From contig JABIWU010000090.1 of the NCBI GenBank assembly GCA_018701395.1, forward strand, positions 1-64,000: DNA of 64,000 bases, in the 5' to 3' direction. The stretch comes from Phycisphaerae bacterium. GTDB taxonomy: Bacteria; Planctomycetota; Phycisphaerae; Phycisphaerales; SM1A02. This document shows, one piece after another, positions 37,686-41,566 of this stretch. Position 1 is the first letter of the stretch; the number at the start of each line of letters is the position of its first letter. The notes under the pieces were generated by a model that did not search any database, had not been told where the DNA came from, and saw only the letters and a list, made by a program, of their open reading frames with translations. Both the position numbers and the translations under genes were made by a program.

Positions 37686-38891
37686 ATGTCAAACTCCACC
37701 CCAGGCTCTATGCAAATAGTTCCATTACCAGTATTTGAGGAAGATGCAGATCCATCCAGACGAGATGCATTAACACTTGAAGAACAATTCGATAAATTAG
37801 AAGCACCAGAAACCATTGTGGTTAAATTTGGCGCACTTAAGTTAATCGGTGAGTATAAACAAGCCGGTGGCATTAAAGCTGGATGCGGATCTAAACTTGT
37901 TGCAAGAACACACCGAGGCACCGAATTAGTAGAAATGTTGACAACAACATGTTCAAACTCTGGGTGTGGCAAATCTATCAGCCGAAAAGAAATGCTCGAG
38001 TACATCGAAAATTCAGGCGGAAAGGACTTTCCGTTTCATACTAATGGTCGAGTGATCAGAATTGCAACAACAGACGATTTAAATTCAATGGACATGCTCC
38101 GAAGTACGATTGATGAAAAAATCCGAAGTGCTCGGCAGTTAGTCGAAGAACATCGGCTCTCAATGAAAATTGTTGATGTTGAGCCAATTCTTGGGGAAGA
38201 ACTTTTAACTTTTTATTATCTGAGTGAAGACAGGGTTGATTTTAGAAAGATAGTCTCTGACTTGGCATCAAAATATTCAACACGAATTGAAATGCGACAA
38301 GTTGGTACCCGCGACGAAGCGCGTTTAGTTGCAGACTATGAAAAATGCGGTCAACACTGCTGTTGCAAGGGTTTCTTGAAAGTGCTTTCTCCAGTTTCGA
38401 TGCGCACTGCAAAACAACAAAAACAAACGTTAGACCCGAAAAAGATTTCAGGTCGCTGCGGTCGATTGATGTGTTGTCTTCGGTATGAAGACCAAACGTA
38501 TCGTGAGTTGAAAAAAAACTTACCGCACAAGAAAACGCGAGTTGGCACAGCAGAAGGCCCCGGCATAGTTATCGATGGCAAAATTTTAACGCAGCTAGTT
38601 ATGGTTGAGCTTGAGAATGACAGAAGAAGAATCGCTGTGCCGATTGAAGAATTACTCGATCCAGAGACATGCCCACGTCCTTGGGAAGAAGTTGTTGATC
38701 ACAAAGAAGCTAAACCAAAAAATAATCGTAGAAAAAATCGTTCTAAAAATTCCAATAAGGACATGCCCAAGGATCAAAAACAAGACGAAAATGTTGAGGG
38801 TAATGCGGCCCCTTCGGCAACAAAGAAAAAGAGACGAAGACGAAGGCGTTCTCGCAAAAGAAACAAAAGCGAAAAGCCCGATAAGGCATAA
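37686..38891 (+). CDS. RicT/YaaT-like PSP1-domain protein
   Basis: A 401-residue protein with the PSP1 C-terminal domain (about residues 95-320) seen in RicT (YaaT), part of the iron-sulfur RicAFT complex that promotes RNase Y mRNA maturation in Firmicutes. Conserved Cys clusters are visible in EKCGQHCCCKGFL and SGRCGRLMCCLRYE, likely iron-sulfur ligands. An N-terminal extension (residues 1-90) and a strongly basic tail (KKKRRRRRRSRKRNK) flank the domain. It is followed 3 bases later by lepB. RicA and RicF genes are not visible. The exact role outside Firmicutes is unknown. Confidence 0.83.
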   Translation: MSNSTPGSMQIVPLPVFEEDADPSRRDALTLEEQFDKLEAPETIVVKFGALKLIGEYKQAGGIKAGCGSKLVARTHRGTELVEMLTTTCSNSGCGKSISRKEMLEYIENSGGKDFPFHTNGRVIRIATTDDLNSMDMLRSTIDEKIRSARQLVEEHRLSMKIVDVEPILGEELLTFYYLSEDRVDFRKIVSDLASKYSTRIEMRQVGTRDEARLVADYEKCGQHCCCKGFLKVLSPVSMRTAKQQKQTLDPKKISGRCGRLMCCLRYEDQTYRELKKNLPHKKTRVGTAEGPGIVIDGKILTQLVMVELENDRRRIAVPIEELLDPETCPRPWEEVVDHKEAKPKNNRRKNRSKNSNKDMPKDQKQDENVEGNAAPSATKKKRRRRRRSRKRNKSEKPDKA

Positions 38892-38894
38892 TGA

Positions 38895-40448
38895 ATGACA
38901 ACAAACGAAAGAAAATGTCAATCCGGAGTAATTGAAACATTGCAATCATTAATCGTTGCGTTTGTGCTTGCGATGGTTTTTCGAGGTTTTGTTGTAGAGG
39001 GTTTCGTTATTCCAACGGGTTCAATGGCACCGACGCTACTCGGTCAACATTTACTTAAACACAGCGATCAGACTGGGCAAGATTTTCCAGTTGGTTTTGA
39101 TCCAAGGCGCTCTGTATCACCGGATAAATTTTCCGATCCTCTTCTTGGCAGGAATATTCCACTTTCCATGTCAGAAGCAAAAAAGTTAGAGCCAAGGGCA
39201 GGCGATCGAGTAGTTGTTCTTAAAACACTATTTCCATTTTTTGGACCAGAAAGATTTGACGTGGTCGTTTTTAAAAACCCAACGGATACGCAGGGCCTTT
39301 CGGCAAATTACATAAAGCGTCTTATTGGGCTTCCAGGAGAGACGCTATGGATCGCAGACGGAGATATTTTTGCAAAACGCGGGGATGATGCTTTTGTGAT
39401 TCAGAGAAAACCAGAACATGTCCAACGAGCTCTCTGGATGCGAGTCTCAGATAGTGACGCAATACCAACAGACATGCTAGCGCTCTCACGGCCTTGGCGA
39501 GGTCCACCTTGGACAGGTAATCCGCAAAGTGCATGGAATTACGAAAATCGAATGTGGGTTTGCAATACTTCCGAGCCAAGTTCACTTGTTTGGGACCAAA
39601 ATAAAATACACATCGACGATTGGTCATCCTACAACATGCTCATGCCGAAACAACGACAAAAGCCCGTTTCAGATATTCGAGTGTCGGCAACAATTACACC
39701 CGAGTCAGAAAAAATCACTGCAAGTTTTACACTTCAAGCGATTGGGCATCAATTTCAATGGCTATTATCAAACGATTCAAGTTCGTTAGTAGTTCGAACT
39801 TTGAGCGGCGAACTTGTTCAAAAAGTCGAATTTGATTGTACTTGTTTTGAAAACAATATACCAACCCGTGTTGAATTTTGGCATGCTGATCAAATGATGT
39901 CGTTATATATAGATGGCGAACGAATAGGTACGCTTCTTTATAATTTCAGTCCGGAAGAACGATTGCGTTTTGCAGCGAATGTTGTAGACAGTGTTCCAAT
40001 TGAAGATATTGCAACAAGAAGTGGCAAGGATGCAAAACTGACCTTGCAATTTGATGGATCGCCGCTTGCAATTACTCGTTTGCAAGTTGATCGCGATTTG
40101 TATTATCGAAGTTCGCCTTTGCCTTCTATTGCAACGAAAAATCCAACAGCCAGCGGCAACGAATCTCTTGTTAAAGCAGGAACTCCAGCATTTGGAACAT
40201 ACCCAAAGTTGGCTGTTCTTGGAAAAGATCAGTTCATGATGGCGGGCGACAACAGCGCCTATTCTCTTGATGGCCGGTTATGGGGCAATCCTGATGAGTT
40301 TGTTGCAACTCAAATTGACGATGCGCCATTTGTAGTACATCGCAATTTACTGATCGGTAAAGCGTGGAGTGTGTATTGGCCAGCGGCACTTATTGACTTC
40401 GGTATACCGGTAATTCCAGACTTCGGACGAATCCGTTTTATTAGATAA
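38895..40448 (+). CDS. lepB: Signal peptidase I with a large insertion
   Basis: A 517-residue S26 peptidase that removes signal peptides from exported proteins. A membrane segment (residues 14-38) is followed by the catalytic Ser43 in PTGSMAPT, the basic catalytic Lys141 in YIKRLIGLPGE, and the final conserved MMAGDNSAYSLDGRLWG near residue 447. Between residues about 165 and 435 is an insertion of about 270 residues whose C-terminal part (VEFWHADQMMSLYIDGERI) resembles LamG/concanavalin-like beta domains. Usual LepB proteins are 180-330 residues long. A second membrane segment is not obvious. Confidence 0.88.
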   Translation: MTTNERKCQSGVIETLQSLIVAFVLAMVFRGFVVEGFVIPTGSMAPTLLGQHLLKHSDQTGQDFPVGFDPRRSVSPDKFSDPLLGRNIPLSMSEAKKLEPRAGDRVVVLKTLFPFFGPERFDVVVFKNPTDTQGLSANYIKRLIGLPGETLWIADGDIFAKRGDDAFVIQRKPEHVQRALWMRVSDSDAIPTDMLALSRPWRGPPWTGNPQSAWNYENRMWVCNTSEPSSLVWDQNKIHIDDWSSYNMLMPKQRQKPVSDIRVSATITPESEKITASFTLQAIGHQFQWLLSNDSSSLVVRTLSGELVQKVEFDCTCFENNIPTRVEFWHADQMMSLYIDGERIGTLLYNFSPEERLRFAANVVDSVPIEDIATRSGKDAKLTLQFDGSPLAITRLQVDRDLYYRSSPLPSIATKNPTASGNESLVKAGTPAFGTYPKLAVLGKDQFMMAGDNSAYSLDGRLWGNPDEFVATQIDDAPFVVHRNLLIGKAWSVYWPAALIDFGIPVIPDFGRIRFIR

Positions 40449-40549
40449 GCCCTAATAAACGGTTGACTAACGGGATTAACCGGCACAGCCGGTACGCTTG
40501 GCCTGCTTTGTTGTGTAGAACAGCACAGCATAAGCCGACCTAATCTCTC

Positions 40550-41566
40550 ATGGGATTACCTCAATGGCTAACACGCAGTCTTTCATCTCAACCAATCGCA
40601 GTGCATTTTGGCAGGGACATGGTTCGTATGATGCAGATAAAAGGCACGAAAGCGCGCTCATTACACAGTGCGGTTGAAGTACCAGCAATAGATAAAAATG
40701 CAATCGGAATCGCACTGAATTCTTTTAAAGGGAAACGTTGTGTTGCAAGTATCGGATGTGAAAGTGTGCTCGTACAACACATTAGAGTTCCGCTTGAAAT
40801 CGAAGACCTAGAATTACGAGAACGACTCGTGAAACACGATCTTCGTTGGGGCGATTCTGAAATACGTAAATTGTGCATAACGACTACCGGTGATTCTGGA
40901 AACCCAAAACAAGAAATACTTTGTGTTGGGATTGAGCGGGAAGTTGTACGACAGGCATTTGATGCTATTGAGTCTGCAGGAGGCGAAGTGGTTTCCGTAA
41001 CAGTTCCACTGTATGCATCTCTGCGCGCATTCGATAGTTTGTATCGTAGAGACGGCGACGAAAAAATTACTTCACTTCTCATCGATATGGACGAAGCATC
41101 CTCGATCGTAATGATTGCTCACGGTGCGAATTGCGTTTTTGCGCACCATCTTGATACTCAAATAAAAGCAGAAACGCACGAAGCAAAATGGGAAGCGACT
41201 CCTTCGCTTACTCCAATTACATTGCTTAACAACGAAAGCGAACGTCGCAATGAAAACGAACCGCGCGGATTGCAAGGAATGCAAGCTAGTGGTGGTTCTA
41301 TCGAAAAACTTCTTGAATGTGAAATTGCAAGTTGCTTGCGACATCATGATGCGTTATTTCCTAATCGCGCAGTGGACCGCATTATTTTTACTGGCGTCGG
41401 AGCAGGCAATACCGATAGTTGTGCAGCAATTGCTTCAAGTCTAGGAATCGCAGGTTTCATTGCCGACCCTTCAGCATGGATAGAGGGTGCAGAAGATTAT
41501 GCAGCAGGTCCAGCGTGGACAACAGTTGCTGGCATTTGTATGCGTTACTCGGAGAAAGCAGCATGA
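40550..41566 (+). CDS. pilM: PilM-like type IV pilus/T2SS assembly ATPase-fold protein
   Basis: A 338-residue actin-fold protein. It begins with SQPIAVHFGRDMVRMMQIKG, the PilM/GspL-like phosphate-binding entry, and has a long regulatory middle and a C-terminal FTGVGAGNTDSC segment. In pili, PilM is a cytoplasmic ring linked to PilN. A 101-base spacer (40449-40549) separates it from lepB. pilN begins inside its stop codon (ATGA), so the set pilM-pilN-pilO-pilP-like-pilB is one operon. Confidence 0.8.
   Translation: MGLPQWLTRSLSSQPIAVHFGRDMVRMMQIKGTKARSLHSAVEVPAIDKNAIGIALNSFKGKRCVASIGCESVLVQHIRVPLEIEDLELRERLVKHDLRWGDSEIRKLCITTTGDSGNPKQEILCVGIEREVVRQAFDAIESAGGEVVSVTVPLYASLRAFDSLYRRDGDEKITSLLIDMDEASSIVMIAHGANCVFAHHLDTQIKAETHEAKWEATPSLTPITLLNNESERRNENEPRGLQGMQASGGSIEKLLECEIASCLRHHDALFPNRAVDRIIFTGVGAGNTDSCAAIASSLGIAGFIADPSAWIEGAEDYAAGPAWTTVAGICMRYSEKAA

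Follow-up and report, generated by a model that had tools for sequence, protein, structure and literature searches.

The lepB gene of a Phycisphaerae bacterium encodes a signal peptidase I that carries, between its catalytic lysine and its GDN box, a domain predicted to fold as a lectin-type beta-sandwich, and the same enlarged form of the enzyme is found across the Planctomycetota sampled. The gene lies at positions 38895–40448 of the window, i.e. the whole 64,000-nucleotide stretch of DNA that was analysed, on the forward strand, to which all coordinates below refer. We are highly confident of the anatomy of this long planctomycete LepB and of its housekeeping role. The long form gives the impression of a housekeeping enzyme redesigned throughout a phylum, and not of a peculiarity confined to one protein.

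The lepB open reading frame has an ATG start, begins three bases after the upstream gene and encodes 517 amino acids that include two inserts. Judged by its sequence, the product is a type I signal peptidase (MEROPS S26A, LepB) with an intact Ser-Lys dyad and GDN box. It matches Pfam PF10502 with 77.1 bits (cut-off 22.9) and NCBIfam TIGR02227 with 71.9 bits (cut-off 47), and the family landmarks occur in order. The Ser box IPTGSMAPTL (residues 39–48, 39009–39038) includes the catalytic Ser43; the Lys box NYIKRLIGLPGE (residues 138–149, 39306–39341) includes the catalytic Lys141, which is constant in the alignments; and box E, GDNSAYSLDGR (residues 451–461, 40245–40277), includes the GDN motif at 451–453 together with S457, D459 and R461. 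The S26 landmarks that the initial annotation had claimed were thus all confirmed. Thirty-eight of 39 aligned long forms have the catalytic serine, the remaining one being truncated ahead of it, and the residue is invariant across the 36 sequences of a second alignment, A2. GDN, S457, D459 and R461 are present in all 39 aligned long forms and in all 36 sequences of A2. A hydrophobic stretch at residues 12–30 (38928–38984) was read from the sequence as an N-terminal membrane helix, the only one apparent in the protein; the structural model has a helix at residues 12–28, where pLDDT is low. The LepB of E. coli has two membrane helices.

The distance from Lys141 to the GDN box is 310 residues in the window protein, compared to about 127 in E. 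coli (by alignment to 1t7d) and 51–89 in 29 parsed ordinary planctomycete copies, so that the window protein is longer here by about 180 residues than E. coli LepB and by about 220–260 than these ordinary copies. An insertion of about 270 residues had been proposed for this region; a large insertion is real, but that figure also counts residues that correspond to the normal Domain II. The added domain (insert 2) occupies the Domain II, or cap, site between the Lys box and the GDN box. The entry motif IQRKPEHVQ (residues 169–177, 39399–39425) leads into the insert, which spans residues 179–404 (39429–40106) and is followed by a linker to the catalytic domain (residues 405–440, 40107–40214) that has low pLDDT. 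Alignments to E. coli chains covered only the catalytic boxes, and the best stretch of the A2 profile against the PDB was 112–151. Since all eight relatives found in a scan of genome contigs retain the insertion, it is not a product of chance. Its retention in these eight and across the phylum also rules out a peculiarity of one MAG, or a chimera.

The structural models indicate that insert 2 is a folded beta-sandwich of the ConA/LamG lectin type. Two AF2 models were obtained, one of the window protein from an alignment of nine sequences and one of a tandem paralogue that is 37% identical to it, for which ten sequences were used. In the model of the window protein the insert consists of nearly all strands, with pLDDT of 75–91 at residues 201–240, 87–92 at 261–350, 61–70 at 351–380 and 86–87 at 381–400. 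This confident sandwich rules out a disordered loop, and the structure prediction that the initial annotation had called for supports its lectin-like reading of the fold; that reading was too narrow in confining the fold to the later part of the insertion, as it spans residues 179–404 approximately. The best Foldseek matches were levanase/CBM66 domains, the putative glycosyl hydrolase 3u1x (which we take to be DUF1080-like), galectins and the sandwich part of neurotoxin binding domains, with E values of about 1e-6 and TM-scores by target of at most 0.66. VIA-align placed ERGIC-53 and related lectin domains (4ygb, 3whu) at the top. The match to 4ygb had a Z of 14.0 and an rmsd of 3.1 over 161 residues at 6% identity, covering the model range 179–402, and the 50 top rows were, by title, mainly lectin-type, CBM or GH16 domains. 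In the second model the core of the sandwich has pLDDT of 81–91. Its best Z was 6.4, under the level that VIA-align calls clear, and its rows again comprised legume-lectin-like, GH16, galectin and LG domains, the same fold class. The catalytic part has pLDDT mostly below 50 in both models, and the placement of the sandwich relative to the active site follows from the insertion point alone. Sequence profiles gave fainter signals: the A2 profile found galectins in the PDB at E 0.009, a Pfam search found Laminin_G_2 at E 0.14 in one of 36 relatives, and the window protein had no lectin or LamG Pfam match at E 1.

Profile comparisons indicate that insert 2 is one homologous domain across the Planctomycetota sampled. 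When the inserts of the window's group were compared with those of eight proteins from other classes, hhalign gave a probability of 99.3 and an E of 7.6e-21 over 240 columns, and a third group, from the window's class, matched the two others at E 3.6e-15 and 6.4e-15; the reversed control gave 0.06. Thirty-seven of 39 proteins entered this comparison, as L073 and L084 could not be cut. The proposal to look for the insertion in other planctomycete LepB proteins was therefore borne out, with long forms across the phylum and homologous inserts.

Conservation within the insert was scored in 105 long-form open reading frames that exceed 140 bits and have both ends closed; tandem copies and close relatives counted at full weight. 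Six residues of the insert are nearly constant in this set, namely K172 (98%), D260 (99%), D332 (97%), R400 (90%), D401 (99%) and Y404 (92%), and are as constant as many residues of the catalytic boxes; next come W214, Q177, G341 and P368, at 81–86%. In the model, K172 precedes the sandwich, R400 to Y404 are on its last strand and D332 is in a tight turn between two strands. Four of the six (K172, R400, D401 and Y404) thus lie where the chain enters or leaves the domain, as would suit a rigid connection to the catalytic domain, and we infer that these four would hold the sandwich in place against it. A ligand site need not be constant throughout a phylum, and this pattern of constancy may be compatible with one. 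Sequence change has been quicker in the sandwich than in the catalytic boxes: compared with the relative L004, identity is 93% in the Lys part and 81% in the GDN part but 63% in the sandwich. The closest relative, L003, supplies the only one of four pairs without synonymous saturation; there dN/dS is 0.02 in the Lys part, 0.18 in the GDN part and 0.20 in the sandwich, the last value indicating purifying selection on this domain.

The initial annotation had overlooked another, smaller insert, which is located between Ser and Lys (insert 1, residues 51–101, 39045–39197). In the window protein this segment of about 50 residues has no cysteines, and thus none of the two CxxC knuckles of a zinc ribbon; comparison with its relatives suggests a degenerate zinc-ribbon segment. 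Its SDQTG aligns with CPQCG or CAECG in L082, L083 and L087, which belong to the window's own order, and L090, from another class, has an analogous DEETG. No cysteines were found in the Ser-Lys segment of L090, L093 and L098. Among 101 parsed long forms, 39 have a Ser-Lys spacer with at least two CxxC motifs, 30 have a spacer of similar length that is free of Cys pairs, the kind to which the window protein belongs, and 32 are without the segment. The Cys-bearing kind follows the zinc-ribbon-like pattern CxxCG...CPxC, and the count of 39 was repeated with a second pattern. Zinc-ribbon Pfam models (Zn_ribbon_8, IBR_1 and others) gave weak matches in single relatives. The label Cys or no Cys requires seven changes among the segment-bearing rows of a weakly resolved tree, and well-supported branches force at least three for the Cys label; repeated loss of the cysteines, with the segment retained, is therefore probable. 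The spacers of L149 and L150 contain six CxxC motifs and that of L160 contains four.

The long form is widespread. The S26 profile gave a match in 193 of 195 genomes across the phylum and in 243 of 247 genomes of the class; a search with P0001 gave a match in 191 of the 195, a count to which ordinary copies can also contribute. Sixty regions were chosen from these listings for long frames and family spread, and not as a random sample. Fifty-eight of them include a long form: 56 score above 140 bits against the A2 profile, and two weaker ones (L122 with 110 bits and L128 with 107 bits) were recognised by eye. The remaining two, L115 and L117, are enzymes of the ordinary type whose N-terminal tail is long. 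The best ordinary copies reach 82 bits against the same profile among the parsed sequences and 87 bits among all. In L128, a frame of 425 amino acids, GDF replaces GDN in box E, possibly with altered activity. Ordinary copies are common in the Planctomycetota.

Spacers were parsed in 130 of 183 sequences (101 long and 29 ordinary). Many of the 53 that were missed are ordinary, and 12 of the 53 score above 140 bits, some being cut at locus ends. The tree was built from 125 rows, five short forms with a doubtful Ser being excluded, and 107 columns, and has many open forks. The later sets skip the duplicate loci L001, L002, L071, L075, L094, L095 and L097, as well as L111. Long versus short requires two changes on this tree, which is compatible with a single origin of the long form. 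Beyond the Planctomycetota the survey consisted of one scan of genome contigs, of a kind that picks up close relatives. Carriage by viruses was considered and rejected, as none of 24 pattern matches in viral contigs was a relative.

Long LepB proteins are also found as tandem pairs, in L010 (3162–6542) and in L103, L104, L105, L106, L107, L108 and L110. In L103–L108 and L110 each copy retains the Ser, Lys and GDN boxes, ruling out dead paralogues there. The Ser boxes, which were partly read by eye (such as IPTGSMAETL and ISTGSMAPSL), differ within the pairs of L103, L104 and L108, one copy having IPTGSMAP and the other ISTGSMAP. Both copies of L103, L104, L106, L107 and L108 have the Cys4 segment between Ser and Lys.

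The source genome (1.94 Mb in 102 contigs, 97.7% complete) was searched with the S26 profile, and both matches lie within the lepB open reading frame itself; no other S26 protein was found. The check for additional standard LepB copies that had been recommended therefore came out in favour of the window protein, with no normal-length LepB found in this genome. A second LepB hidden among S24 proteins was ruled out as well, since the two proteins found with the S24 profile read as LexA-like (L102) and UmuD-like (L101). The UmuD-like frame of L101 (G000:C98:10500-11500) is followed by a UmuC-like frame, in a genome of 1.94 Mb. The family to which the window belongs was represented by 61 genomes; the S26 profile matched 57 of them, and the four others are 55%, 74%, 88% and 97% complete (the last is G456). 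By hand count, the match is in a frame of at least 400 amino acids in 54 of the 57. An ordinary full-length copy was counted by hand in five, in four of them beside a long form; G429, which is 80% complete, has an ordinary copy only. No ordinary full-length copy is listed in the other 52, one of which, G455, has a 94-residue fragment that is possibly ordinary. Since it is the only signal peptidase I found, the window protein should handle general Sec and Tat cargo. The suggestion that it serves a special set of exported proteins is thus not supported, and such a role is unlikely.

The genomic neighbourhood contains nothing that points to a special cargo. Directly upstream, and probably co-transcribed, is a PSP1-domain gene (37686–38891; PF04468, 90.2 bits), which precedes lepB in all eight relatives L003–L010 (in L010 it precedes the tandem pair) and in four of 13 further loci, whose flanks are much shorter. 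This gene encodes a long basic C-terminal tail and is the most constant lepB neighbour among the relatives checked. The gene directly downstream of lepB has no Pfam match. A type IV pilus operon with PilO and T2SSE matches is located 3' of lepB and is kept in place in six of the eight relatives. The gap between lepB and this operon (40445–40550) folds better than shuffled sequences, with a z of -2.7 (two of 200 were as good). A known riboswitch was considered for this gap and rejected, there being no Rfam match of note and no stem evidently kept, by eye, in six relatives.

We propose that the window LepB is the general, and apparently the only, type I signal peptidase of its organism, cleaving by the ordinary Ser-Lys mechanism. 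The sandwich would serve the catalytic domain as an immobile platform for docking on the external face of the membrane, and it may hold the enzyme near the Sec/YidC exit or hold the emerging mature part of the substrate, probably through protein contacts and not through sugar binding. The simplest task that could account for the retention of the sandwich in a whole phylum is docking, either to the translocon exit or to the emerging chain. As a whole, the picture of a general signal peptidase I with a docking sandwich as its cap seems to us evenly poised between right and wrong; docking, taken by itself as the task of the sandwich, is offered tentatively, at somewhat less than an even chance. 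The faster evolution of the sandwich relative to the catalytic parts is also what one would see if it were no more than structural filler, a Domain II that was inherited in enlarged form, props up the catalytic fold and its membrane-facing sheet and has no further task. Domain II of known signal peptidases differs in size from enzyme to enzyme and is devoid of conserved motifs (PMC4049620), and the persistence of the Ser-Lys segment in proteins that are without its cysteines would likewise suit a filler. Retention throughout the phylum, with K172, D260, D332 and D401 at 97–99% in the 105 long forms, speaks against it, although constant structural residues would give the same pattern; we consider this reading possible but on the doubtful side.

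The sandwich may instead be a true lectin or CBM that binds envelope or nascent glycans, and thereby tethers the peptidase to the envelope or biases it to glycosylated substrates. That so many of its best structural matches are sugar-binding domains (ERGIC-53, CBM66, galectins, legume lectins) is in keeping with this. However, the fold also occurs in non-lectins, four of the six most constant residues are at the domain entry and exit and D332 is in an inter-strand turn, and the Pfam search for lectin or LamG domains was negative for the window protein at E 1, so we regard sugar binding as unlikely. Going further, a lectin-fold sensor and a zinc ribbon fused into an export enzyme could couple signal peptide removal to recognition of an envelope component, or to whether the cargo is folded or glycosylated, zinc being an older switch that was lost repeatedly; this is a speculation to which we give little credence. 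Least probable of all, and very improbable indeed, is that the true signal peptidase would be a LepB of normal length, with the window protein as a specialised side copy. Ordinary copies are common in the phylum and four of the 57 family genomes have both forms, but no second S26 protein was found in this 97.7% complete genome, and 52 of the 57 are without a listed ordinary full-length copy (counting G455 with its 94-residue fragment).

Signal peptidase I is essential, and its Ser-Lys chemistry is established for the family (PMC9360617). A literature search found no title or abstract that describes a lectin-fold or zinc-ribbon insert in a planctomycete signal peptidase, subscription papers being mostly outside its scope. 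The insert was not found in the accessible text of PMC1586193 and PMC1403754, both of which name signal peptidase and Planctomycetes. According to PMC4049620, Domain II is a non-catalytic 'cap' that is variable in size and in which conserved motifs are absent; the planctomycete cap, by contrast, is predicted to have a definite fold, and some of its residues vary hardly more than the catalytic ones. Its function becomes testable by simple domain swaps. The insert also offers a marker by which planctomycete LepB can be recognised from its sequence; the current Pfam model aligns to this protein only in disjoint segments. The chlamydial signal peptidase I, CT020, is likewise long, at about 630 amino acids. 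Chlamydial signal peptidase I is reported to be greatly diverged from its non-chlamydial counterparts (PMC1403754).

The window protein shares with E. coli LepB (1t7d) the order of the boxes, the Ser-Lys dyad, the GDN box and the location of Domain II between the Lys and GDN boxes (PMC4049620). It differs from that enzyme in the 310 residues, versus about 127, between Lys and GDN, in the predicted ConA/LamG-fold sandwich, in the extra Ser-Lys segment of about 50 residues and in its one apparent membrane helix. With S. pyogenes SipA and the Gram-positive signal peptidases it shares the catalytic fold and a cap domain at the same place (same source), whereas their cap is minimal and SipA is without the dyad that is intact in the window protein. 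The likeness to zinc ribbons appears in the sequences of those 39 of 101 parsed long forms that have at least two CxxC knuckles after the Ser box; the segment of the window protein, in contrast, is Cys-free. To the ConA/LamG-like lectin domains (4ygb, 3whu, CBM66, galectins) the resemblance is one of predicted fold, whereas identity to 4ygb is only 6% and the planctomycete domain sits inside a protease.
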